A stretch of 64,000 nt of DNA, from positions 1-64,000 of the forward strand of contig WPIO01000257.1 of NCBI GenBank assembly GCA_009760855.2. The letters are read 5' to 3'. Shown piece after piece: positions 1-64,000 of this stretch (position 1 is its first letter; each line of letters starts with the position of its first letter). A model generated the notes under the pieces. That model searched no databases. It was not told the origin of the DNA and saw only the letters and a list, made by a program, of their open reading frames with translations. The translations under genes and the position numbers were made by a program. The DNA is from Cristatella mucedo (taxonomy: Eukaryota > Bryozoa > Phylactolaemata > Cristatellidae).

Positions 1-590
1 AGCAATTCACTAAAAAACCACGATGCAATTGAAAGCTGTTGGCGGGCTGCCAGGCTTATGCTAGTCATACTGCACACACTGACGGCTCGACACCTGGCCA
101 CCAAATGAGACAAATCTACATTACATATTGTGACAAATTGACACAGGCTTTGTTGAACTACAGAGGCCGAGAAACCATTCTTCGAGTATTTGTACGATAA
201 GTTCACTCCTACGTTGGGAGCAGTTATCCAATTTTGAGGCAGATCATTCTTCCTTAAATGTAACAAAGAATTCGAGTCCAACTGCTACACAATTTTCCCT
301 ATTAATTCGACAAAAGAAGGACATTTTCCACATGGCCCCCACTTGCACGGCACGCTGCAAAAAGAGCCAGTGGCCAAGCCAGACTGAGCATTCAATACAT
401 GCTCTAGGAACGAGAGCAGAAAAACAATCGTGACGTTAACGCCAGCCATAAAAATGCGTGTTCGGTGCAGCATGGAAAATCTAGATGCTCAAGCAAAATG
501 ACCGAGCACTGCATTAAGCTAGGCTTCACAAATCACTGTGCACGAAGTGCATTTCAAGGTAAATTAATTTAATGGTACATGACATCTCTG
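1..590. other. Unassigned sequence left of the first SINE
   Basis: AT-rich, intron-like DNA inside or beyond the STK3/4 gene. No exon for the rest of the kinase domain and no repeat family was recognised here. Confidence 0.5.
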
Positions 591-762
591 ATCGCCACGA
601 TAGCCCAGGAGGTAAGGTGCTCGCTCTTCAGGACCAAGGTCGTGGGTTCGAATCCTGTAGTGGGCGATTCTTTATTGCCAACTGACATCGGTGGTGACAG
701 CCGTTTAAGGCTCTTCTGCTGCTATACACATGAGGCTGTTAAATCAGCTAATATTTAATTAA
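591..762 (+). repeat. SINE-1 copy (tRNA-derived)
   Basis: It contains a perfect A box (TAGCCCAGGAG) and B box (GGTTCGAATCC) of a tRNA-type RNA polymerase III promoter. The SINE-1 body follows (GGTGGTGACAGCC, GGCTCTTCTGC, GCTATACA) with the tail GAGGCTGTTAAATCAGCTAA. One of about eleven copies here. It is a retroposon, not a working tRNA. Confidence 0.85.
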
Positions 763-999
763 TGGGACAAGCCTCGCCAATCTAAGTTTGCAGCCCGGTT
801 TTACTCTATGAGGGCAAGCCATATTTACATGAAGCACAATACACTATTGCCAAGGAACTACCAATGTTTTCCTGCTGTGCTGTGTAGGTAAAAGCAGATA
901 GATTTGACTTGCTAATCTAATAATGTAGCAAACTAACATTTGGGATCCGGCCCTCCCGCGCCTGTATACAGGCTACAGGGGATATGGTGTCGTGCTAGT

Positions 1000-1150
1000 T
1001 ACGACCTTAGCCCAGAGGTAAGGTAATTACTCTCTAGGTCTTGGATTCGAGTTCTGCATTAGGCAATTCTTTATTATCTACTGCAAGCGGTTGTGATAGC
1101 AGTAAGGCTCTTCAGCTGCTATACAAATGAGGCTGTTGAATCAGCTAACC
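1000..1150 (+). repeat. SINE-1 copy, diverged
   Basis: It shows the same head and tail as the copy at 591, with a mutated B box (GATTCGAGTTC). The tail GAGGCTGTTGAATCAGCTAA is present. Confidence 0.75.
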
Positions 1151-1254
1151 TTTTAACAGTCATTTTTAGTTCGTATCGTGTGAGGCCGTCAGCAGACCGG
1201 TCATCAGTGGAGTATTTGATATTTTTTGTACGACTTTTCTTTATGCACAATGAG

Positions 1255-1450
1255 TCAGCTTCATGGGAGAGTCATTTGGGGTCGTGGTGTCGAGTATCAA
1301 TCTATGCCGACGACGTCCAGCTGGACTTATTCAAAACCTCCCAATCAGCTTAGGCTTACTAATAAAGCTAATGCCTGATTCGAAGAAATTTATTTCCGGA
1401 TATCAAGCGATTTCCTTAAACTAAACAGTAATAAAACCAAACGCTTCATA
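1255..1450 (+). pseudogene. LINE reverse transcriptase fragment with YADD box
   Basis: The frame encodes SIYADDVQLDLF, the catalytic YxDD box of LINE reverse transcriptases, followed at 1410-1445 by FP*TKQ, matching the FLKLN motif that comes after it in other copies here. Stops and shifts show it is dead. Confidence 0.7.
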
Positions 1451-1516
1451 GAATACCAGATTTGATACTTATGACTGGTACAAGTGAATGTGCTCTCCTA
1501 TTCTCTTATAACGATT

Positions 1517-1683
1517 GGCCGTGATAGCCCAGGAGGTAAGGTGCTTGCTCTTCATGACCAAGGTCATGGAGGTTTGAATCCTTTTGTAGGCTATCAGCAA
1601 GTTATGGTTAACTGAAAGCGGTGGTGACAGCCGTTAAGGCTCTTCTGCCACTATACAAATGAGGCTGTTAAATCAGCAAATAT
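1517..1683 (+). repeat. SINE-1 copy
   Basis: Complete head (GTGATAGCCCAGGAGGTAAG), body and tail (GAGGCTGTTAAATCAGC). It lies just outside kinase exon 6, within 100 bases of its donor. Confidence 0.82.
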
Positions 1684-1772
1684 TAGTGAGCTACAAAAGT
1701 CGGAAACTTTACCTGACATTGTTGCATATTTATATAATGCATCCACGGCAAGACGTAACAATCGCAAAATTA

Positions 1773-13221
<11,449 letters not shown>

Positions 13222-14430: not shown

Positions 14431-15740
14431 TCGCCGCTCAAGCCCGAAGCCCACTCCTGAATGCAGGTTCGGGGCTCGCTGGGTGAGCAATCAGTAGAAC
14501 GTCACGCCTAGGGAGTTTTAGGCTCGATTCTAGCTCACTATCACTAGGATCGGAAGTTTGTTTGCATGCGCTAGCTCGAGTTACTAAGCACGAATTGGGG
14601 ATTTTATTGAACTTTATTCGCCGAAGCACAATGCCGACGCCCGTCTTATTTAGTCTCGTTACCATGCTCCTGACAGACGCTTTCCAAGAGCATTGCTCAG
14701 ACATGGCCAAATTTACAGGGAACTCTTATGGAGGAAATATCGACACCATACTCAGGTCAACTGCATCTATTGCTGGGACGCAACCCGCATAGACTAAGGC
14801 CCAAGCAGCATGAAGATCGCGACAAGTTTCGCGTCGTTTCAGACCTCTCGTGCCCCGACTGTCGCTTCACCGATGTCTACTTCCCAACAGAAAAATACGC
14901 TTGCTTCTATCTTCTGCCCAGAGATAGGAGCTAGGCCGTTTTCGCTTGCCGAAAACGTTCCTTCTACTCACAAACCTGAGGCAGAGAAATCCAGACTCTG
15001 TGGGCGTGGCCACGTCCACAATGCAGTTAAGCCCCAGCCGAACTCACACCACTCCGCCCGGCCGACGGGCGCGCTGAATACCGCCTCATTAGGCGCTGCA
15101 GTTGGACAGCGTCGGCTAACTAAGCCGGATTTAATTGGAATGGGTCAGCTGTGGTCGCATGACCCGCTAGTCCTGCAGCAAAAAGCTTCCTGCTTATCCA
15201 CCGGCCTGTGTAGAGGCTCTCTCCCTCTCACTCTCTGTCTCTCTCCCTTTTCTCTTACTCCCTTATCTACGGGCGCTACGGAGCTTCTACCACGACGGCT
15301 ACCGCTTCATCCGTATGTACGCTTGCTCGCTTCGCGTTTGCCTGCCTGCGTATGATACAACTCACTTGTGGGTGCAAAGTTCATCTTCGCGTGCAACGTT
15401 CGCCATCATGCGTCGCCATCGTGCGCACTAGCCCCTACAACTCAAAAACACTGTGCTAAGTTCCTAGTCGGGAGCGAACATGCACTCGAGCGAGCTCGCA
15501 TACATACGCTCGCACATACGAGCACCCACACCCACAGAATGCAGGTCGCCGGGCTATATGAATGTATTACGTCGCCGCTCTTCCGTGGTCGTCGATAAGT
15601 GGCGTGAGTGCCGGCCCACCTCACAGGTTTTAACAGAATTGAGTGAAGCAACTGTCGGGCGCTGGCTGCCTTGAGCGAGCGTCGTCTTGGTCTGAAGTAG
15701 ATAGATTGGACAAAAGTTAAAGAATGCCGAGAAAGAGTTT
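14431..15740 (-). repeat. Possible diverged LTR of the 36.9-40.0 kb solo LTR family
   Basis: On the plus strand GATTTTATTGAACTTTATTCG at about 14597 nearly repeats the poly(A)-signal region of the solo LTR at 38568-38588. The surrounding GC-rich, CT-rich and stop-poor DNA differs in composition from its flanks. Ends and target duplications were not found. Confidence 0.3.
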
Positions 15741-18590: not shown

Positions 18591-19244
18591 TTCGATGTTG
18601 TATGGCGACAAATATAGTAACCATCTTGTTATTCGTCACCTACATGCTTTGGCACCTTAAGTTGGCTTCTCTGAGTGCTGTCACAGCAGTAGTACATGGT
18701 ACCTGGTAAATTGTACAACTTGGTCGATACTGGGCCGATCTGTGTGAAACTTGGAATATAGGTGGAGCTCACCTGCCTCGACACTCTCCCCCTGTGCATC
18801 TACGCATGATGGGTGTGTATGCATATAATGTGCCTGTGACAAAGTGTCCGTGGGCTGTGTTCGTGATGACAGTCAACAGTTTAAGATGTCAAGTTTTTTT
18901 TTAAAGTTTTTTGTGGGAGGAGAGTCTCCAGTCGAGTGTCTTGCATTTTTTGAGTGGTTTGCCATATTTCTAGAATGACGTTTTTATAATCGAAAAAATT
19001 TGGAGCTGCCTTTTACCAGCAGTGCTATACGTGACCTTGGACTTTTAAAGGTCACCAGAAGGTAAAAACAGCAGCTATATCACATCAAACAATAGCTAAT
19101 GCTACCAGTGTTCTTCGTGCCAATTTTCATGCCAATCAGTTTACTGGTCTTCGTACAATATTTTATAAACATGCTTTTGGAGGGACAACTCCCCCAATTG
19201 GCGGCCATTTTGGCGGATAACTCCCACTACTGCCGGACATACCC
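18591..19244. mobile_element. Unknown insertion of about 0.65 kb within LINE-B
   Basis: LINE-B coding stops at FLK (about 19245) and resumes near the AAGCGTATGGCTGG block (about 18590). The sequence between matches no repeat elsewhere in the window. It has a T-rich tract at 18894-18911 and a GGGAGTTATCCGCC / GGGGGAGTTGTCCC pair near 19177-19230 on the minus strand. No clean terminal repeats were found. Confidence 0.5.
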
Positions 19245-19590
19245 CCTTTCAGGAAGTTTTCCGACATCCAGGATCGAATATCGGCAATGCAAGCATTCAA
19301 TTTTTCAGTTGCTGCAGCATATTCCGACGGTTTGAATGAATAATACAACTGAGTATCGTCATCATAAAAGTGATATCCTATTCCATGGGCCTTAATCACT
19401 TTTCCCAGAGGTTGTGTATAAATGGAGAACAGCAAGGGACCGAGTACAGACCCTTGAGGGACTCCACAGGTGACCTTTCTCGTGTGTGAGACCTGACCCC
19501 CACACAATACGGATTGAACACGATCGGAAAAGTACGATTTAAACCACGCCAGTGCTTCGTCCGCCAGACCAATCGTTGTTCTCAATCGTA
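19245..19590 (-). mobile_element. LINE-B reverse transcriptase piece
   Basis: The minus strand encodes GLADEALAWFKSYFSDRVQS, GVPQGSVLGPLLFSIYTQPL and YHFYDDDTQLYYSF. The YxDD box reads YDDD, so the second residue is altered but both aspartates remain. It ends with SWMSENFLK, where the unknown insertion begins. Confidence 0.85.
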
Positions 19591-21175
19591 ACATCATAAA
19601 TATCCTTAGTTTCAGAAAATATCCCTACCCCTTTCAAAAAGGCAGTAGTTAGGCCAATAATTAACAAAGAAACACTAAACCAAGAAAACTTAAGCAGTTC
19701 TCCCAATCTCCCTTCTATCAAAGACCCCGGAACGAGTTGTGGCAGACCAGCTGAACTCTCAAATCGAAAATTCGAACCTAGCAAGTAGGTTCTAGTGTGG
19801 ATTTAGAGCTAAAAGATCATTAGATTCAGCATTGCATAGGGTGTATTATAAACTTCTCAGAAATGCAGACTTGGATGAAGTCTCTCTGCTCATTTTGCTT
19901 GATATTTCGGCAGCGTTTGATGCGATTGATTATCAAGTACTTCTCGAACGCCTCTCATTTCGCCTTCGGATGAGTGGCACTGCACTGCAATTGTTTACGT
20001 CCTATCTCAGTGGGAGACTCCAGAGTATCGTCGTCAACGGAAAAAGATCATCCGAGGAACCACTGAAGTATACGGGACCTCAAGGCTCTGCGCTTGGTCC
20101 GCTTCTTTTCACAAAGTATATTCTCCCTCTTGCCGATATGATCACCAAGCACAGTCAGGGTTTCACTTATGTGCAGATGAGTTCACAGTTCGTACCTTTG
20201 CTTTGACCTCTCCCAGCCATCCAGCACGAGAAGCTCTCTGAATTTCTCGTGCGGCGTGTATTTCTGACATCCACAAATACATGGCAGAACACTTTTTTAA
20301 ATTAAGTTATGGTAAAAAGATCTTACTAGTTTTAGGCAAACCAAGTGGGACTCAGAAATTCGAAAGATTAACGTTCAAAACCAGCTCTGCCAGCATTTCT
20401 CCTGTTGCATCTGCATGAAACCTAGTTGCCCTGCTTCAAAGCGATATCTTGCACTCGACGACCACATCAGCTCCATAGCCAAGTCTGCCTACTTTCAGCT
20501 ACATTGCTGAAATTCTGGCTTGCTTAGACAGGGATACTACATCCAAATTGATCCATGCTCTTCTGAAATCCCGTCTCGATCTCTGCAACTTGCTGATCCA
20601 CCGGCTTGAGCAATCAGATGCTTACATACAGCTTATGCAAAACTCTGCAGCTAGGGGTCAGTCTATCGTGAGCGTCGCAGTTACCATATCACACACCACT
20701 TCTTGATGATCTGCACTGGCTCTCAATCCGGCTGCGCATCGACTTCAAGGTCTCGTCACTCACTTGTAGGTCCCTTCATTCTCTGACTCCAGCCTACCTA
20801 TCTGAACTACTCCACCACAAGGCTAGGCATCGTTTCACCCGCTTTTCTGAATCAAATTGTTTATCTGTACCTTGTACAAACCTCAAATCATTTGAAGGCC
20901 GTTCCTTTAGATCGCATGCTCCTAGAGCCTGGAACTTACTCCCGACTGACGTCACGGTATCCCTAGACTTGATGATATTTAAAAAGACACCAAAATGCAC
21001 CTGTCTTTGACAGAATTTACTAGGTCTTTATGATTTGTCATGTATGTGCTTATGCGTGACATCGTGCATGCTGCCATTAACAGTTTGATCATTGCTGCCG
21101 TTACGGCACATATAAAGTGCCTGGGAACATTAAGTTCTCTGTGGACACTATGCACATGTATTATTATTATTATCA
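19591..21175 (+). mobile_element. LINE-A, right piece (RT to 3' end)
   Basis: It continues the LINE-A interrupted at 17712: the CCAAGAAAACTTAAGCAG block, then ISAAFDAIDYQVLLERLSFR, GPQGSALGPLLFTKYILPLA, the C-terminal DLHWL region and the 3' untranslated end with (ATT)n at 21160-21171. Frameshifts and stops are numerous; the GVPQGS motif reads TGPQGS. Confidence 0.82.
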
Positions 21176-24082: not shown

Positions 24083-24264
24083 TAAATAAATGAATAAATC
24101 CTAGCTGTTTAAGCAGCCTCTTTTGTATAGCAACAGAAGAGCCTTGACGGCTATTACCACCGCTTGCAGTGGCAATACAGGATCGCCCACCACAGGAATC
24201 GAACCCACGACCTCGGGACCGGGGTCATAAAAGCAACCATCTTACCAAGTGTGCCATCACGGCT
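24083..24264 (-). repeat. SINE-1 copy
   Basis: Minus-strand copy with tail, body, B box (GGTTCGATTCC) and head ending near 24264. A (TTTA)n-like tail lies at 24083-24097. Confidence 0.82.
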
Positions 24265-24942: not shown

Positions 24943-25545
24943 CGCTGGGTGCCGGTTTGGGTTTTCGCTTTTCCTGAGACGTGCATGCCGCCGTAGCCAC
25001 AGCCGCACTACAACTGGTAGCAGAGAATGGCCTATTCACGCCGAAAAAAGAATCCCAGATCTTCTACAGTCCAGATTGACTTCCAGCGCTCGGGTACGAA
25101 GCGTTTAATTGCATTTCGGAACCAACGTCTTACGTTGGCTACTGATAATAGAAAAGGCAGTAACGTGGTTGAATATCGTGTTGCCGTAAAGTAAATATCG
25201 TGTTGCCTAAAGCATGCCGTACCTACGGGTCTTGGTGAAAATCCTATATGCTATTATGCCGAGCAGCAGGCAGATAGAAAACAAGATTGTGGCAGGCTGA
25301 GTGAGCCTAGAGTTAATATTGCTTCTCACAATGCTGACTGACGAGGAGGCCGAGCTAGAGGCACAGAGAATTCGGCTGGAGCAGAAGCGGCTTACCGGAG
25401 GAGAGGCAGCTACGGCGGTAAGCGCGCGGGACAGTTTGGCCACCGGTAGAGGCCACAGTCAAAACCTCCCTAGGATCGCCGAGCCGAGCTTGCAGCTGCC
25501 CTCGCAAGCCAATTTCAAAGCTTGCGCAGGAAGCGGGTATTAGAC
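24940..25545 (+). mobile_element. LTR end, initiator-Met primer site and gag leader of a Ty3/gypsy-like element
   Basis: A primer-binding site TGGTAGCAGAGAATGG lies at about 25015-25030. It is complementary to the 3' end of initiator tRNA-Met except for one base. The preceding 75 bases look like an LTR end and a similar diverged end lies at 33050-33125. The following frame encodes MLTDEEAELEAQRIRLEQKR, a charged helical segment closely matching the one at 30242. Confidence 0.6.
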
Positions 25546-25565: not shown

Positions 25566-25808
25566 TGTGGTTTCGTTTAATTGATGACACTGCATTGTAC
25601 GAGTGGGCTGTGACACTCGATGTGGTATGCGGTCGGGACGTGCTATTGGTGATTGTTGTGACGAGAGAGTCGGGAGGGGGGGGGGAGACGCCGGTGGTGA
25701 GAGCAGTGAAGAGAGTCGTGCTTCGCCCTGCTCCCGTGCGTTGGGAAATAAACTGGCGGCGTTGCTAGTCGGCTAGCGTTCTGTGCTGTTCGCGACGACA
25801 ACTCAAGC
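25566..25808 (+). repeat. LTR-like repeat segment
   Basis: 25566-25650 (TGTGGTTTCG ... GGTGATTG) recurs at 29419-29517, and 25654-25805 (TGTTGTGACGAG ... AACTCA, with AAATAAACTGG) recurs at 32428-32549. The TG...CA ends and AATAAA suggest an LTR. The order differs between copies, so the parent structure is unclear. Confidence 0.5.
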
Positions 25809-25987
25809 TGTGATGGCTCACTAGGTAAGGCGGTTGCTTTCACGATCTCGGTCCCGGGGTCGTGGGTTCGATTCATGCGGTGGGCAATTCTTTATCGCCG
25901 CTGCAAGCGGTGGTGATAGCCTAAAAGGCTCTTCTGTCGCTATACAAAAAGAGGCTGTTTAATCAGCTAGGATTTATTTATTTATTA
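25809..25987 (+). repeat. SINE-1 copy inside the LTR element
   Basis: Complete SINE-1 with TGATGGCTCACTAGGTAAGG, a strong hairpin before the B box (GGTTCGATTC) and tail GAGGCTGTTTAATCAGCTAG, then ATTTATTTATT. It lies between the LTR-like repeat and gag. Confidence 0.87.
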
Positions 25988-26710
25988 AGCTACAAGCTAC
26001 TTCGGCGGCCATAGAGAACGTAAAATTCAGCCACATCGTCACTCAATTCGACGGCAGTGAAGACTTTTCGGGCTTGGTTGTAAAGTTTGATCTGGTGGCA
26101 GAGATTCAAGGTACTGTCGTTGCCGACCGCCACAAGCTCCTGCCCTTTTTTCTAACCGGTGGAGCGTTAGCCGTGTACCAGAGCGTCGATGGATATACCA
26201 TCGTAAAAGAGGCTCTCCGAGCTGTATTTTCGGGGGGTAAATTTAAAGCGTTTATGGAGCTCACGACACGGTGGCTCCAAGCTGGGGAAACAGTGGAGAT
26301 ATATGCAACGGTTTTGGCCCGGCTGGCCGGACTGGTGAGTTTGGCTGCGGAGAATGACTTGCTAAAATTCGCTTTCGTCACTGGTCTTCCCGAGGATATC
26401 CGCAAGCAACTACGCGCGGCGTGTGCACTCGACGAGATAGCGATTTTCGAGGTGGCTGAGAATGCTCGAGCGCTTACAAGTTGCCAGGAGCCGAGCTACG
26501 CTGCTGCCGCTGGGGGCACTAGGAGCTAGAGGCTCTCGCCCGGCTCCACGGAAGCGCTTTGATTTCGCCTGCAAAATTGAAGGGCACATTCGTCGCGACT
26601 GCCGTTCGTTGCAAAGGCAACGAATGCTGTGCTTTGTATGTGGGTACGATTTGCACCTAGCAGCGATATGTCTGGAGCGTCGCACCGATTCGAAGTCAAA
26701 AACGAGTTAG
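25988..26710 (+). pseudogene. Ty3/gypsy-like gag with zinc knuckle, frameshifted
   Basis: A 151-codon gag frame (26074-26529) covers the capsid-like region (FKAFMELTTRWLQAGETVEI, FVTGLPEDIRKQLRAA). A shift leads into 26462-26710. There ACKIEGHIRRDC is a CCHC knuckle that has lost its first cysteine, and CFVCGYDLHLAAIC is an intact C-x2-C-x4-H-x4-C knuckle. The order gag, protease, RT, RNase H, integrase follows. Confidence 0.82.
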
Positions 26711-27960: not shown

Positions 27961-28715
27961 TTACCAGATGGCTCCGACCGGCCTGTAGCTACGTTAAGAG
28001 AGCCACAAAAGACCTATTGTGGGATGCCGAGGTTACGGAAGACATCCTTCGGATGGCAGACGAGATCAGCCGTCGAGTGATAAAAGTAGATCCAGTATCC
28101 GGAGTGTGGAGTTTGCCGTCGTCACCTAGCGGACAGGTATGGTTCGACGGAAGCAGCTTAGCGATAGGCCCCTGCTTGCGATTTGGAGGGCAGACTGTCG
28201 AGGATGCCTAGTAATGGCTCGCAAGCTCCGGCGGTTGCTTTTCACGACCTCGGCCCCGAGGTCATGGGTTCGAATTCTGTGGTGGGCGATCCGTTATCGC
28301 CACTGCAAGCGGTGGTGATAGCCGTCAAGGCTCTTCAGTCGCTATACAAAAATAGGCTGTTAAATCAGCTAGTAGTGGCTTAGAAAGCCAGATGATGTAG
28401 AGCATATAAATCTGGCCAACTCGAGGCTGTCGTTAAGAGCCTAAACTTATCCCCGGCCTGGGGCCTTCGCGAGATCGAGTGGTTTACTAATTCGGCCTCT
28501 GTGCATTCGTGGCTTCGATTGCTGGTCGAAGGCTATATGCCTATCCGTACTCGAGGTCTGGGCGAGGCATTAGAGCGATGGCGGACAGAAATAATACGCG
28601 ATGTAGTTAAGGAGTATGACCTTCGGGTGAGAATAAAGCGTGTGCGTTCGGCTGACAACAAAGAATACCACTTAACGAGTACCGCGTTAGCTCAAGCCAA
28701 TCGCGATTCTTGAAG
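27961..28715 (+). pseudogene. RNase H-like region, split by a SINE-1
   Basis: Before the SINE: TRWLRPACSYVKRATKDLLW and VWFDGSSLAIGPCLRFGG (first RNase H Asp present). After it: WGLREIEWFTNSASVHSWL, where the expected TDS reads TNS, and RTRGLGEALERWRTEIIRDV. The SINE occupies 28210-28377. Confidence 0.78.
28210..28377 (+). repeat. SINE-1 inserted in RNase H
   Basis: Complete copy with the perfect hairpin CACGACCTCGGCCCCGAGGT, B box GGTTCGAATTC and tail AGGCTGTTAAATCAGCTAGT. RNase H coding flanks it on both sides. Confidence 0.88.
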
Positions 28716-29686: not shown

Positions 29687-29952
29687 TGTGTGAGCCTGGA
29701 GCTTCTCGGCCGCTAGCTAGTATATGCCCACCTGCGGCGGGTGGTTGAACCAAGCAGCCTTTGACGTCAGCATGTGGCCCACCACAGATGCACTCACTTA
29801 TCTGTGGTGAGTCAGCCCCTAGCTCCCATATGTACCCGCTAGGGAATAAAGAAGGATAGTCTCGTTCACCACTCACGTTCGCCCGCTCGTGTCTTCGTGT
29901 CTCCGTGAGACTCCGCTAGTCCTGCTGCAGCCGGAGACACAGTAACGTAACA
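29687..29952 (+). repeat. 5' LTR of the non-autonomous element
   Basis: About 266 bases. It holds a segment with AATAAAGAAGG (about 29843) that is lacking or replaced in the 3' LTR, which explains the length difference. Confidence 0.83.
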
Positions 29953-29953
29953 T

Positions 29954-29969
29954 TGGTAGCAGAGAATGG
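29954..29969 (+). promoter_or_regulatory. Primer-binding site, initiator tRNA-Met type
   Basis: TGGTAGCAGAGAATGG pairs with the 3' end of animal initiator tRNA-Met at 15 of 16 bases. It starts two bases after the LTR end. The same 16-mer occurs near 25015. Confidence 0.87.
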
Positions 29970-30673
29970 TTTACTCGAGCCAAAAAGAGTACCAGACTTT
30001 CTACGGTCTAGATGGAACGACCATATTAAGGTACGAAATGTTTGACGGCGGACCGGACTTTATGCCTTGGCTTCTAACGCTTGAGAAGGCTGTAGCAAGG
30101 CTAAAGATTCCGATGCCGCTAAAGCATGTTGTGCCAGTGTGTCTGAGCGATAACGCGATACACGGTTGGGGTGATTAGCCGGCCGACGTAAAGCAAGATT
30201 ACCACAAGCTGCGAAATGAATTAATCCTGATCTTCTCGTGGTTGACGGATGAGGAGGCCGAGCTTGAGGCCGAGAGGTTTCGGCTGGAGCAGGAGCAGCT
30301 CGCCGGAGCCGAGACCGGAACAAAGGTGAGCGACGTGCCAGCTGCATTACCGATCAACTCCACTGTCAACTGCCCGAAAGATTCAGACAAGCGAGCGGAA
30401 CTCATTCGGATGCCGCAGCTATCCGATGGCAATACCGGTGGAGGAAGCGGGCATGGGACCGCTTCCAACATAGTAGCCATAACCGCCGAAGAGCGCCAGA
30501 ACAACGTAAGTGCGCAGCTGGAGAATAAGGAGGTGGAGCGTGCGACGGCTTTCAGCGGCGAGGCGGTAGTTGCCTGTGAAAAGGCGCAGGCGGCCCAAGC
30601 GAGCGACATCTTGGCGGTGAAGCGCAGCAGTGAGAGCTTCGTAGCAGCGAGAGCATCTCGGCGGCAAAGAGTG

Positions 30674-35525: not shown

Positions 35526-36907
35526 TCATTTATATTTAATTGATAATACCGAAGATGGTATTGACAACGACCGATGTAATTTGCTGGCATGTGCAATCAA
35601 TATTTATGGGCTACTTCACTAATAGCGTAGCCAAGTTAGACACAGAGAACATACATAATTCCCAAAGTAGGTACGAACGATACAGGTCCTTATTGCATTT
35701 CGATAAATAAAGAAGACTTATTTTCACAATACAAAAGCGGTATTTAGAATGCAATTATGGCCTGCTTGCTGCAAGAGCGACAATTTGCTTTTCCCATTGA
35801 GAAGCAAAATCAAATGCTGTTGAAGAACACGAAGCCAAATAGCTTCAGCGACACTTGATGTCCTTAGGAATTAACCGCATAACCAAGCACAGCAGTAATT
35901 TCAATAGCTACAACAATATTTTCCAGAGAGAACTGTCTAGCCACTGCAAAAAGTGCTAGTCCACTAAACATGACCGTCCCATACCCATGCTCCACAGTAG
36001 GGCCTGGGTGATGGTGCAAGCCCACATGAGGAAGAAGCCCCCGTAAGAGTTGCTAGGTGATGCGGATTAACGCAGGCGAACGAGCGGCATAGCATTATCT
36101 GATAGGTGCTCGCTGGCGGTGGGTAGGCAGCTCTCAATTAGAAGAGGAAGAGAGGACAGGGAATAGCTTCCGTACAAGTGGACGGACAGGCAGAAAATGA
36201 GGAGCAAGCGATGATGAGGTCCTCATGACCCAGGCAGTAACTGCTGTAGTTTGGTTCACACATCAGAGAGCCAGCCGATGAACAATGCCAACAATTTATT
36301 CTACTACTCACAGAGCAGAGGGAGCACGACTGCACTCGCCCCTCTCTCCCACTCAAGTCTCCTCTCCTTGACTCCGGCTGTGCCTTGGCCGACCCCGATG
36401 GCGAATCCACCATCTTTTCACCAGTACGTTATCGGCCTGTGTCACCGCATTATTAGAAGTGGACCACACCTGTGCACAGGCCCCTCTCGAGGATGCTCCC
36501 ACCGGATGTTGAGGAAAGGAGCGGTACCAGCCGGCATGCTATCGAACTACAATTGCCACACCCAGCTATCGGTACGCTTAAGCTGACAGCCGTCCAGTGG
36601 CGAAGGGTGAAATTGCCAACCCCTGCGGTTGACCTTGATTGGGAAAGGGACCGACATCAACCTGAACAGTCTGAACGAGTCACCTGGGCGCCCGATTCCA
36701 CGAAGCCAGCTGGAAAGCCTGCGCCAGGCCGAATCATTTGTCTCCAATAACCCGATTCAACAAGAAACACACCCAGCTAGAAAACTGAGAATTTGAAATC
36801 AGTGGATTGGGCTGCAGAACCATTTTCACGAAACTGGAGCACCACAAACGAACTTGAATCGGAAGCTGATTTGCTGTGCTCAAATCAGGCATGCACACCA
36901 ATGCATG
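35526..36907. other. Unassigned sequence
   Basis: 35526-36120 is AT-rich with no features. 36130-36780 is GC-richer with overlapping open frames on both strands (for example 91 codons minus at 36413-36138) and no known domain. It may be another LTR-type repeat. Confidence 0.3.
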
Positions 36908-38172
36908 TGTAGCGCCTTGCTGGCATTGGCCGAATTTGAGCACGAACAAGAGCTGTTCGGTGGCGGGCAAGAACTCCTTTGTCCTGGAGCAGTGAGCCAG
37001 AGAGGAGCGTCAGTGCGGTTAGAGAGCAAGAGCTTAGGAGCAAGCCAGGAAGCTCTGAGACTAGCGGTGCCGATTTGGCCTTTAGAATTGGTCCGATACC
37101 CGCGGGAGCTGCAGATTGATGTTGGCTGGCCTGTCAACCTCAGCCATCACTCTGTCCAAAAAGAATCGTCTGGAACCCATTCGCCATTCAAGCTGGACAG
37201 AGGGGCCATTCCAGTGGCCTAGTGGCGGTAATTATTCCTTACCGTAATAGGCCCTGGTGTCGGGCCCAATACCACTAAGCTCTTGCCCCATTGTCTCAGC
37301 TAAGTATTTAAGAGTCGAGCGATGCTCGCTCTTGGTCTTTTGGTCTTCTGGTCTTTTTCCGGCTCCGCGCTTCGACGCCGTCGGACTCGTTTCTCTGAAA
37401 GCGAGGGAGGAGGGCGGGCTGCTCGCCGGCGATGGACGGAACAGGACGAGCCAGCGCTAGGAGGATTCGGTGGACTCCACCGAATACGGTCGTATCGCGC
37501 CCGAGCTGGCATTTTGCGTTTCTTTTGTGTTTTGTGTGTGGGCGCTCTCACGTGGTCTCGGCATAAGGATTAGCCGGTGCGAGCTAGACGTAGTTGGCGT
37601 GTGTGGAGTCCTAGTTCTCCGGTTAGGGTTTAGGCTCCGGTTTGGGCTCTGTCTATTTGGGTCGTTCCCCATTATACATGTAAGTAGCTTAAGTGTGGAG
37701 AAGCGTTTCCTCCGCAAGAGTGCTTCAGTTGGCGTGTGGGGTATTCCTGCCGCACTGGTGGAAATGGAGTCCTAGCTCTCCGGTTAGGGTTTAGGCTCCG
37801 GTTCGGGCTCTGTCTATTTGGGTCGTTCCTAATTATAGACGTAAGCAGCCTCAGTGTGGAGAAGTGTTCCCTCCGCAAGAGTGTTGGCGCTGTTGAGAGC
37901 GTGCGATGAGTGGAGAGATAAAACTGAGCTAGACGCGCAGCGACTTTGTGCGCTTGCGAATAAAGCTCAGTAAAATCCCCACTTTGTGTGTCTCGCATTC
38001 CAAATCACGCCGCGGACTCACGACCCCCTTTAGTAATGGTAAGCAGGTCAGCGCCAGTAACGCTCGTTTCGTGGCGGCCAACTTATTGCGGTAGGCGCGC
38101 ACCGAACGGCATTAGGCGCTAGGTTACGCCGCAGGTCAAGCCCACTCCGCCGAGCCTTCGGCGTTACACATG
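36904..38172 (+). mobile_element. Solo LTR, plus orientation, with CATG target duplication
   Basis: LTR 36908-38168 begins TGTAGCGCC and ends GGCGTTACA. CATG flanks both ends (36904-36907, 38169-38172). Inside, in order: TATTTAAG promoter-like box at about 37304, two minisatellite units (each with GGTTAGGGTTTAGG) at about 37588-37890, and AATAAA at about 37959. Termini, 4-bp duplication and signals fit an LTR retrotransposon LTR left after recombination. Confidence 0.87.
37588..37890. repeat. LTR-internal minisatellite, 2 units
   Basis: Two units of about 150 bases, each with TCCGGTTAGGGTTTAGGCTC, TATTTGGGTCGTTCC and CTCCGCAAGAGTG. The matching array in the other solo LTR has five units. Confidence 0.85.
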
Positions 38173-38264
38173 TAATTACCAGTTCTATAAATATTGCCGA
38201 TGAAATGACACTAATATTCACCACATATTCGTTGGTATATTCGACTGTAATCCTTCCAAGCCAT

Positions 38265-38363
38265 ACGTGTGGAACTTGCACAACTCTTACGCAACAACTA
38301 CTCTCCTGCTGCTGACTATGGCTCACCCTTTTCAGCAGTCCTGAGCTGCTAATTCCATGCTAC
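38265..38363 (+). mobile_element. LINE-B 3' piece, left of the solo LTR
   Basis: It matches 8190-8285 of the LINE-B copy (TGTGGAACTTGC, CTACTCTCCTGCTGC, TTTTCAGCAGTCCTGAGCTG). It ends at CCATGCTAC, where the LTR is inserted; LINE-B continues at 40011. Confidence 0.85.
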
Positions 38364-40014
38364 TGTAACGCCGAAGGCTCGGCGGGGTAAGCTTGACCTG
38401 CCGCTTACCTAGCGGCGTAGCCTATCGCCTAATGCCGTTCGGTGCGCGCCTACGCGCAATAAGCTGGCCGCCACGAAACGAGCGTTTCTGGCGCTGACCT
38501 GCTTACCGTTACTAAAGGGGGTCGTGAGTCCGCGGCGTGAATTGGAAAGCGAGACACACAGATTGGGGATTTTACTGAACTTTATTCGCAAGCGCACAAA
38601 GTCGCTGCGTGTCTAGTTCAGCTTTATCTCCACACTCCTCGCACGTTCTCAACTGCACCAACACTCTTGCGGAGGGAATACTCCTCCACACTAAGCGCGA
38701 CCCGGACCCTAAACCCTAACCGGTGAACTAGGAATCCGTTCCCACCTGTGCCGAGGGAATACCCCAAACACGCCAACGTAAACACTCTTGCGGAGGGAAT
38801 ACTCCTCCGCACTGAAGCGCATACCGGAGTCTAAACCCTGACCGGTGAACTAGAACTCGGTTTCCACCAGTGCGACCGGAATACTCCACACACGCCAACT
38901 CAAGCACTCTTGCGGAGGAAATACTTCTTCCCACTGGGGCTGCTTACGTGTATAATGGGAAACGACCCAAATAGACGGAGCCCGAACCAGAGTCTAAACC
39001 CTGACCGGTGAACTAGAACTCGGTTTCCAACAGTGTGGCAGGAATACTTCACACACGCCACCTCGAGCACTCTTGCGGAGGGAATACTTCTCCACACTGG
39101 GGCTGCTTACGAGTATAATGGGAAACGACCCAAATAGACGGAGCCTGAACCAGAGTCTAAACCCTAACCGGGAACTAGAACTCGGTTTCCACCAGTGCGG
39201 CAGGAATACTCCACACACGCCAACTCAAGCACTCCTGTGGAGAAAATACTTCTCCACACTGAAGCGCGAACCGGAGCCCAAACCCTACCCGGAGAACTAG
39301 GGCTCCACAGACGCCAACTACGCCTAGGTCGCACCGGCAAACCCTATGCCGAGACCACGTCCTAGCGCGAACACACAAAACACGAAAGAACACAAAATGC
39401 CAGCCCGGGCGCGATACGACCGTTTTCGGTGGAGTTCCACCGAATCCTCTTAGAGCTGTCTCGTCCTGTCCCGCCCATCGTCGGCGGACAGCCCGCCCTC
39501 CACCCTCGCTTTTAGAGAAACGAGTGCCCGACGGCGTCGAGGCGCAGAGCCGGACCAAACACAAAAGACACGTGGCAAAAGACCTAGAGCGAGCGTCGCT
39601 CGACTCTTAAATACTTAGCTGAGACAATGGGGCAAGAGCTTAGTGGTATTGGGCCCGACACCAGGGCCCATCACGGTAAGGAATTAATGCCGGCACTAGG
39701 CCACTGGAATGTCCCCTCTGTCCAGCTTGAATGGCGAATGGGTTCCAGACGATTCTTTTTGGACAGAGTGATGGCGAAGGTTGACAGGCCAGCCAACATC
39801 AATCAGCCGCTCCCGCGGGTATCGGACCAATTCTAAAGGCCGACTCGCCACCGCTGGTCAGAGAGCTTCCTGGCTTGCTCCTAAGCGCTTCCTCTCTAAC
39901 CGCACTGACGCTCCTCTCTGGCTCACTGCTCCAGGACAAAGGAGTTCTTGCCCGCCTCCGAACAGCTCTTGTTCGTGCTAAAATTCAGCCAAGGCCAGCA
40001 GGGCGCTACACTAC
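38360..40014 (-). mobile_element. Solo LTR, minus orientation, with CTAC target duplication, inside LINE-B
   Basis: LTR 38364-40010 (1647 bp) is the reverse complement counterpart of the LTR at 36908. It begins TGTAACGCC and ends GGCGCTACA on the plus strand. CTAC is repeated on both sides (38360-38363, 40011-40014). It carries the same TATTTAAG box (about 39605, minus), AATAAA (about 38580, minus) and five minisatellite units. LINE-B is contiguous if the LTR and one CTAC are removed. Confidence 0.9.
38655..39265. repeat. LTR-internal minisatellite, 5 units
   Basis: CACTCTTGCGGAGGGAATAC or a close variant recurs near 38659, 38785, 38906, 39068 and 39229. Some units include CGTGTATAATGGGAAACGAC and others lack it, so the array mixes long and short units. 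Confidence 0.87.
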
Positions 40015-40215
40015 TCACTACCTCAACTGTTCTCCTGACTCTGCTATGCTTCCCAATTTCTCTTTGTTGCGTAAGACGAAGTCTGTTGGCTAACGAATGC
40101 GTACCGAAAGCCGCTTAGGCTGTGAGTGGGCTATACAAAACTCTCCTGCGTAACACCCACATAGTCTTTATGGCTCTGTGGAGTCACATACGTAGATAGA
40201 TTAAATTACATTCCA
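40011..40215 (+). mobile_element. LINE-B 3' end, right of the solo LTR
   Basis: It continues LINE-B from 38363: CTACTCACTACCTCAACTG, GCGTACCGAAAGCCGCTTAG, CACCCACATAGTCTTTATGG and a tail with ATTACATTCCATTACG. Confidence 0.85.
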
Positions 40216-41455
40216 TTACGTTTATTCCACTGCATTAAAGCATACAGATGGGAAGCGAGGACGCGACTTAGATCTACCGGAAACCGGCTACGCCAAAGCG
40301 TCTGGCTTGAGGAAGTATAGGTACCAGGTACAGATGGGTGCCGACCAGCATCTGCAAAGAGTGTATCTATGATAGTTAATCTATTTATGTCTATGGGTCC
40401 GAAGGGTGTGATGCCATGTTATTACGTCACAGCCCACATTTCCGGCAGCGCCGTCGGCCGAGGAATCTCCCTTCCTGGTTGTATGTATATCTTGGTTACG
40501 TCTGTCTACCTGGTTGGTGCATTGTCCTAAACATCACTTCAAGAGTTGGAGATTTAGATACGTGAGTTAATCTATGAATCGTCCCAGCATATCTGCATTG
40601 TTCGGTAGGCTTCGAAGCGGTTTGACTTTTCGGCGGTCAGGCGTAGTTGCCATTCAACGTAGATCTACCTGAGTAATACTATTATTTGAATTCTACGAGG
40701 CAATGCTTTAGCATGAGATGAGCCTACTGCAATTAGTGACCTTGGTGCTTACTGAGTGGTTGGATAAAGTACTTACCCCGAAGAACCCCTCAGCATGAGT
40801 GTCTTGCCTTTTCTGAGTCTGTGTATTAGCACGGGTATCAAAACAGAGATTTATGAACATATTATGGTTTTCACGTATGGTCTTAGCTGCACTTAGCTAA
40901 TTTATACCCAGCGGCTTAGGGCAAGTTGATCCAGCTCCCTTTTGCTTGACGGTGTGCGTCGATTTCGCGTCAAGACCTCTTCTAGTTGTAAACTAGCTAC
41001 GTGTGGTTCAGACCGCACACTTATTAATTATTTATGCTATGCTCACAAAGCACTGTTTTGATACCACTGCTGTTATGCGTACTCACATTAAATGCAGAGG
41101 GGGGTCTTTCTTCTTGGTGGGTATTTTTGCTGCACACGACCTGTTACTTGGTGCCATACTTGCCCTTTCGCGGCGAGTTGCGGCTCAGCGTGTTGATCAT
41201 CTACGGATTCCTTTCTTACAGGTCTGAGAATTCCTATGTGCGAGGTTATGTGGGTCGAAGTTATTTGGGTCGTGGCAAAGTAAATGCCTGACCTAATTGT
41301 AAAGGCTGATCCCCCATTACAGCCGATTGTAAGCCTAACCTGGTCGACCCACCGCCGTCGTAATTGATTGGCTTGATTGTGGTTCCCTCTCTGAATGATC
41401 CTAGCTCCAGGATACCTATTGTAATGGGTAGTAATGAAACAAGCAACATTGCTGG
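40216..41455. other. Unassigned sequence
   Basis: No repeat or exon was recognised. A frame at 41003-41291 is hydrophobic in places but has no family signature. Confidence 0.35.
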
Positions 41456-62610: not shown

Positions 62611-63802
62611 CCCCCATGAATGAAAGCTTGCTTGCTAAATGTTTTCTTGCAGCATACATAGTTAAAACACATTGAATCTCCAAAACTCAAACATATGTGT
62701 GAATAAGGCAGCTAGAACTCTGTCGACAGATCCTCAGTCGAGTCGACCCCATCCTGCCAAGACTGGAAGGACAGCCTAGTCAGTAGCTTAGGTATGTGGG
62801 CGGTGTTCAGGTGAGGTTATGCAAGTTCTGCATTGAAAGTGTCGATTTAAATGTAATAGTTATGTCGTAGACTGTGGACTAGTTATATCGTAGACTGTGG
62901 GGGGGACATTTGAAGTCACAATGCAACCTGTTGCTATGTAGGAATGCAAAGGCCGCAGTAGCGGCTGGCTAAGGTGCTACTGCAGTGACGCATCCCAGCG
63001 AATTGTTGGTGCTGCAGTCCTTTGGTGTGATCTCGCTACTGGTCTCCTGCAGCCTTCGCACTTGACTTACACTACCAACCCACCAATGACTATGCGCTTC
63101 AGTCGAAACAGCCTGTGGCACATGTGAAGTACGAATGTATTTCTTTAATGATGTGGTTTGATGCCAGCTTTGATCTAGCAGTGGCCCTTTTTCTGTAGTC
63201 CGTTTTCTAGGCAGTCTCACTCTAGCCAAGGGGAGGCTGAAGTGTATTAGTCAAGCTATAGCACAATAATGTCGGACATTGTGTTGGTCAAGTTACCCAA
63301 AGTATCTTCTTGTTCCAAATGGAAAACAAGGCAGATGGTGGACCATCCGACCTACTAGTGGCCAATGTTGCTCTTACAGGGGTAATTGCTGTGGTTAGTA
63401 GGGCTAGCACCAGAAACATGTGGCTAGACGCGAAGGCTATGTCGCGAATTCTTGTGGTTGCACTTTTGAACAAAAGACTTCTTTTTAGTGAAAGTAAGTT
63501 AGTTACTCATTTTCAGGGCGAGTGCACATGCTGCTCTCTTTGATGCCTTATTATTAACACACTCCTATGTGATCAAATCTGTCAGGTTTTAGCACACTGG
63601 TTAATGCAGCTTCCTGTATAACATGGGTATAGACCCGTGGACCCTGTTGAGTGACAATATGCAACTCTCTGCTCCCTTTTGACTAAAGCTATTGTATGAA
63701 CGCTTCTCCAATCTCTGAGCTCTTTCCTGCCCATTGCTCCATCAAGCTAAGTTGGATGCTTTGCTTTTTGTTAACTGTTGATATTGCTTCTCTTGAGTTG
63801 TG
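62611..63802. other. Mostly unassigned sequence
   Basis: It contains the tentative exon at 63310-63495. A direct repeat of TCGTAGACTGTGG lies at about 62867 and 62889. No other feature was recognised. Confidence 0.4.
63310..63495 (+). other. Possible coding exon of unknown gene
   Basis: The open frame begins MENKADGGPSDLLVANVALT and runs to SESK, where a good donor (GAAAGTAAGTTAG) is present. The middle is hydrophobic (LLVANVALTGVIAVV). It matches no family I recognise and could be chance. Confidence 0.22.
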
Positions 63803-63960
63803 ATGACTAGGTAAGGCGGTTACATTTCACGACCTCAGGGCCGAGGTCATGGGCTCGAATCCTTTGGTGGGCAATCGTTTATTAGTGCTGCAAGCGGTGA
63901 TGATAGCCATAAAGGCTCTCCTGTCGCTATGCAAAAGAGGCTGTTAAATCAGCTAGTAGT
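63803..63960 (+). repeat. SINE-1 copy
   Basis: GATGACTAGGTAAGGCGGTT, near-perfect hairpin CACGACCTCAGGGCCGAGGT, B box GGCTCGAATCC and tail GAGGCTGTTAAATCAGCTAG. Confidence 0.86.
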
Positions 63961-63964
63961 TTAG

Positions 63965-64000
63965 TGTGAGCTGTAAAGCACCTGAATAGAGATTAATTAG
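63965..64000 (+). repeat. SINE-2 or LINE-A tail fragment at window edge
   Basis: GTAAAGCACCTGAATAGAGA and TTAATTAG match the tail start of SINE-2; it runs off the window. Confidence 0.6.

Follow-up and report, generated by a model that had tools for sequence, protein, structure and literature searches.

Two solo LTRs of one probable Ty3/gypsy family form a closely spaced inverted pair in Cristatella mucedo

Structure of the LTR pair

The window, a 64,000-nucleotide stretch of Cristatella mucedo DNA (contig WPIO01000257.1, positions 1 to 64,000), contains two LTRs in opposite orientation, designated A and B. LTR A occupies 36908..38168 of the forward strand (1261 bp) between two copies of CATG (36904..36907 and 38169..38172), and LTR B occupies 38364..40010 of the reverse strand (1647 bp) between two copies of CTAC (38360..38363 and 40011..40014). 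Read in LTR direction, A runs TGTAGCGCC...GGCGTTACA, and B begins and ends with the same nine bases; both LTRs have TG...CA termini that include short inverted repeats. The LTRs lie tail-to-tail, their U5 ends facing each other across 195 bp, and the spacer between the inner target duplications (38173..38359) includes the left part of a LINE fragment from about 38268. Both duplications are perfect (4/4 bases each), which at fixed ends has a chance of ~1.6e-5 by base composition. Alignment of A with reverse-complemented B bore out to the base the coordinates, ends, duplications and 195-bp spacing given by the initial annotation.

In this global alignment, 1142 of 1259 aligned columns were identical (90.7%), with 117 mismatches and 390 gap columns (K2P 0.10), the alignment inside the LTR being uncertain owing to tandem units. 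The gap columns and the length difference between A and B mostly reflect differing numbers of these units, which appear in A as two 119-nt matches at 161-bp spacing (37604..37883, + strand) and in B with periods of about 122 and 163 bp (38660..39303, - strand). A TATA-like TATTTAAG is found at position 398 of each LTR (37305..37312, + strand, in A; 39606..39613, - strand, in B). An AATAAA poly(A) signal, with a GT-rich stretch behind it, lies at position 1052 of A (37959..37964, + strand), 204 bases before the end of A and ahead of the spacer; that of B lies at position 1425 (38581..38586, - strand), so that in each LTR the signal precedes the spacer. Elsewhere in the window, positions 14589-14646 match the poly(A)-signal part of such LTRs weakly and are perhaps a relic of a related LTR.

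The right part of the LINE fragment lies immediately beyond B (40015..40212, + strand). When the flanks of B were joined, with B and one CTAC left out, they aligned across the junction to window positions 8193-8489, 17985-17710 and 4893-5088, which indicates that B split an existing LINE fragment. The proposal that the right LTR interrupts a LINE (labeled LINE-B in the initial annotation) is borne out, as three LINE copies of the window represent the site without the insertion of B. The copy at 4893-5088 is itself broken further on by another repeat. The stretch 19517-17710, which holds the second copy, is collinear with 3993-5088, and an overlapping ORF (19163-19624) matches RVT_1.

Assignment to a Ty3/gypsy family

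A search of the 572-Mb genome for the exact 15-base 3′ LTR end returned 922 occurrences, including some tail relics or related LTRs and the 3′ LTRs of full elements, vs. 3 for the reversed control. For A, 40 of 2171 first-look candidates were scored, and 27 loci (L002-L028) were inspected besides the window. After four partial copies (L015, L016, L017, and L028) were dropped, 31 copies with both ends, A and B included, were available; these are mostly A's best matches and not a random sample. Their LTRs measured 1081-1722 bp, and TATTTAAG and AATAAA were exact in 26 and 29 of them, respectively. The 4-bp target duplication was exact in 20 of the 31 copies, differed by one base in six and matched more poorly in five, two of which constitute a single pair (L032). 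No primer site was found in any of 33 3′ flanks, and no two of the 33 upstream or 33 downstream flanks shared sequence at the LTR edge.

The initial annotation had made its reading depend on an internal region paired with this LTR somewhere in the genome, and the search found such elements. In one of about 8.7 kb (C42:439556-448255), the two LTRs are nearly the same (1285 identities, 4 mismatches, 32 gap columns); this element carries the duplication AAGG, the primer site TGGCGCCCGAACGGGGAC and the domain order protease-RT-RNase H-integrase, with a change of reading frame inside RT. Its RNase H-integrase piece matches Ty3 Gag-Pol at 1e-24, and the primer site of these elements presumably suits lysine tRNA. 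Two shorter elements were also found. In L040 (the C27 pair), LTRs identical at 1326/1329 positions enclose 1106 bp that start with TTT-TGGCGCCCGAACGGGGAC, without an established outer duplication; in L041 (the pair at C22:3529671), LTRs with 1333 identities, 2 mismatches and 2 gaps enclose 182 bp between copies of CTCC. Genome-wide, 88 first-look candidates were obtained for the internal region of L040. Around the window pair, no match to it was detected at 36401-36907, in the spacer or at 40011-40500, and the left flank of A (36000-36907) has no second copy within the window.

Junctions between LTR and primer site numbered 46 in the genome when up to 3 mismatches were allowed, vs. 0 for the control; the exact pattern of L038 had matched once. 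The exact 15-mer was present in 27 of the 46, so that at least 27/922 ends border a primer site, a lower bound that misses junctions with more changes. Most of the 922 ends are therefore probably solo. Among the best 40 U5 matches of A (A itself included), seven are bordered by internal sequence (two on C413 and one each on C353, C332, C93, C481, and C12), which places the LTR type of the window with these elements. No polypurine tract was found directly before the 3′ LTR in L040, L041, L047, L051, and L052; CGTGGTCGATAGGTT stands there, before TGTAG, and a purine run occurs about 40 bp upstream. The missing adjacent tract concerns the full elements and not the solo copies, and it is the pol genes that carry the Ty3/gypsy assignment.

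The window LTRs resemble solo LTRs of Ty3/gypsy elements (Metaviridae) in their TG...CA ends, 4-bp duplications, TATA-like box, AATAAA followed by a GT-rich stretch, and full-length partners with a primer site and PR-RT-RH-IN. They depart from them only in their tail-to-tail placement 195 bp apart. The LTRs of the family are long, and the number of units in their tandem arrays varies.

A locus on C26, where two 3′ ends lie 7.3 kb apart in direct orientation, was considered as a full element and rejected. It consists of a solo LTR with the duplication CGGT, inserted inside another gypsy RT, and of a 78-bp tail relic. At another locus (G000:C111:9613154-9630533), seven tandem copies of the internal region recur at intervals of about 2717 bp and probably form an array of LTR-internal units.

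Inverted pairs elsewhere in the genome

Neighboring LTR ends were counted among the first 100 listed of the 922. Six pairs lay within 5 kb and eight within 10 kb, counts that include C27 and C22:3529671, each representing the two LTRs of one element. Without these, four pairs remained within 5 kb (0.8 expected, P 0.009) and six within 10 kb (1.6 expected, P 0.006); clustering of the LTR ends is modest. The six comprised two direct, three tail-to-tail and one head-to-head pair, too few to judge orientation.

Nine inverted neighbors were examined (the window, L013, L027, L032, L033, L034, L038, L039, and L053), in several of which one copy is truncated. In L034 (G000:C88:694300-698300, positions 2031-3678), a copy close to B in sequence (1610 identities, 37 mismatches and 1 gap against it) sits in inverted orientation within a further LTR of the family, at positions 84-87 of the latter, with the duplication CACT. 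The two copies of the head-to-head pair L033 share 13 rare variants within the 5′ block and none within the 3′ block, a pattern that may stem from exchange or from a common source. Two copies in direct orientation at a distance of 1.8 kb (L024) were rejected as a pair, the number of shared rare variants being 0 for the 5′ block and 1 for the 3′ block.

Swapped target duplications were observed only in L032 (C79; G000:C79:447300-451300, positions 637-3460), a tail-to-tail pair with a 115-bp spacer. Here the + copy is preceded by TTCT and followed by CGGG, and the - copy, in its own reading direction, is preceded by CGGG and followed by TTCT. The arms share 8 and 5 rare variants (ranks 3 and 1 among 465 pairs). 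Inversions are a known product of recombination between transposon copies in inverted orientation, and since an inversion between two inverted copies leaves such a pattern, the swap was likely caused by inversion of the 115-bp spacer through recombination between the LTRs. This signature is absent from the window pair. The warning in the initial annotation that two such arms could destabilize the locus is not reflected in the window, where the duplications are unswapped, but this sister pair carries swapped ones.

A third arrangement is seen on C144 (L053; G000:C144:4179300-4182900, positions 310-3274), where inverted LTRs and the adjoining primer-site bases are 99.7% identical over 1354 bp. 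Primer-site bases lie beside both LTRs, both outer ends are of U3 type, and for one arm the center matches bases 1-263 of the internal region (87.9%). On the outside, the flanks read ...TTTA and TTTA..., a single outer 4-bp match that would by itself arise by chance in ~0.4% of cases by base composition, and more often in AT-rich DNA. These features are compatible with the possible integration, in one step, of a cDNA that has U3 at both of its ends, in which an LTR and primer site would be joined to an inverted LTR, primer site and about 263 bp of internal region. Inversion, conversion or assembly may also account for this structure.

It is conceivable, and on balance improbable, that inverted LTR pairs of the family arise by several routes, as chance neighbors (A and B), one-step palindromic cDNA (C144) and flipping of existing pairs (C79), and that together they could give hairpin RNAs against the family. 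The family provides an abundant set of probably solo LTRs. On the basis of target duplications, its inverted pairs can be classified as independent insertions, as pairs that have recombined or as possible one-step palindromes. Such sorting is an inexpensive way to gauge the frequency with which inverted repeats form and are rearranged.

Origin and folding of the window pair

Taken as a whole, the data make it very likely that one Ty3/gypsy retrotransposon family inserted here twice, independently, and that A and B are the solo LTRs left behind. Two separate solo insertions are supported by the individual target duplications, the empty site of B, the lack of an excess of shared rare variants and the existence of elements with an internal region. 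The same duplications, empty site and variant counts uphold the view of the initial annotation that the LTRs are separate insertions and not one foldback element. Recombination between the two LTRs of an element is an established route to solo LTRs, and A and B would each have lost the internal region in this way. Their close, inverted placement would be due to chance, two insertions having occurred in a region rich in repeats.

Rare variants common to A and B numbered 1 and 0 in the two tested blocks (ranks 38 and 68 among 465 pairs). This test gave no sign of exchange between the two LTRs, and gene conversion between them was rejected on this ground. Some observations weigh against the reading as independent insertions. 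Over the first 430 bases, B is the nearest to A among 30 other copies (K2P 0.063), and it is one of A's three best non-self matches in the genome; B is close to other copies too (K2P 0.026 to L018), and this may explain its nearness to A. The five of 31 copies with no matching duplication were likewise counted against independent insertion.

We also considered whether the pair is a hairpin-RNA locus feeding small RNAs against its family, as proposed for Mu killer in maize. The native strand across A, spacer and B folds to a predicted minimum energy of -2494, vs. -1257 with B turned round (presumably kcal/mol, as in ViennaRNA). The predicted pairs between A and B number 1179 in the native fold, which includes 13 perfect runs of 21-73 bp, and 103 with B turned round. 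The lower energy and the greater number of pairs, the perfect runs of 21 or more, and the retention of a TATA-like box and a poly(A) signal by both LTRs speak for such a locus; any inverted repeat of this kind would fold likewise, however. Moreover, the AATAAA of A (at 37959) precedes the spacer, so that a hairpin RNA would require read-through past it. A read-through transcript of A and B could, judging from the predicted fold, form a long hairpin. With regard to the suggestion of a dsRNA source in the initial annotation, the arms are predicted to pair as envisaged and would be a potential source. Mu killer, too, consists of transposon sequence in a long inverted duplication open to read-through, but it can silence MuDR according to an excerpt of PMC3440606, whereas any such RNA or effect of A and B would be hypothetical. 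We regard the hairpin locus as quite unlikely. Among published papers screened by title and the start of the abstract, none on inverted LTR pairs with hairpins or rearranged duplications was found, which is no proof of absence.

A single foldback insertion, in which a palindromic LTR-LTR molecule entered in one step, is less probable still and scarcely credible here. The structure on C144 suggests that one-step palindromes are possible in this family; at the window, however, two separate duplications are found in place of one around both arms, and the outer flanks differ (CATG, CTAC). In addition, the arms are only 90.7% identical with different tandem arrays, the spacer consists of a LINE fragment and other DNA that does not match the internal region, and the empty site of B argues against a single event. 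Non-autonomous Ginger-type DNA transposons, described in an excerpt of PMC2836005 as having TGTNR ends, 4-bp duplications and terminal inverted repeats of 40-270 bp, agree with the TGTA ends and 4-bp duplications of the family and are extremely unlikely, as the terminal inverted match of A and B spans 9 bases with one mismatch, CCGG, CCGT and ACGG are absent among the 20 exact duplications, and copies are found in direct orientation on either side of a primer site and pol domains, these two-LTR elements refuting the reading.

The window pair, very probably the product of two independent insertions, is itself an ordinary repeat cluster, and the observation is closed as two ordinary solo LTRs.

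Other features of the window

No RNA gene was detected in the window by ARAGORN and Rfam, and exact-word scans of viral contigs and genome contigs gave no match. Two similar stretches (24980-25060 and 29940-30030) contain TGGTAGCAGAGAATGG, which we take to be the primer site of another LTR element. A dispersed repeat of ~170 bp, which looks like a tRNA-derived SINE, occurs at 24093-24264, 25806-25989, 28206-28376, 5089-5256, and 63794-63966.
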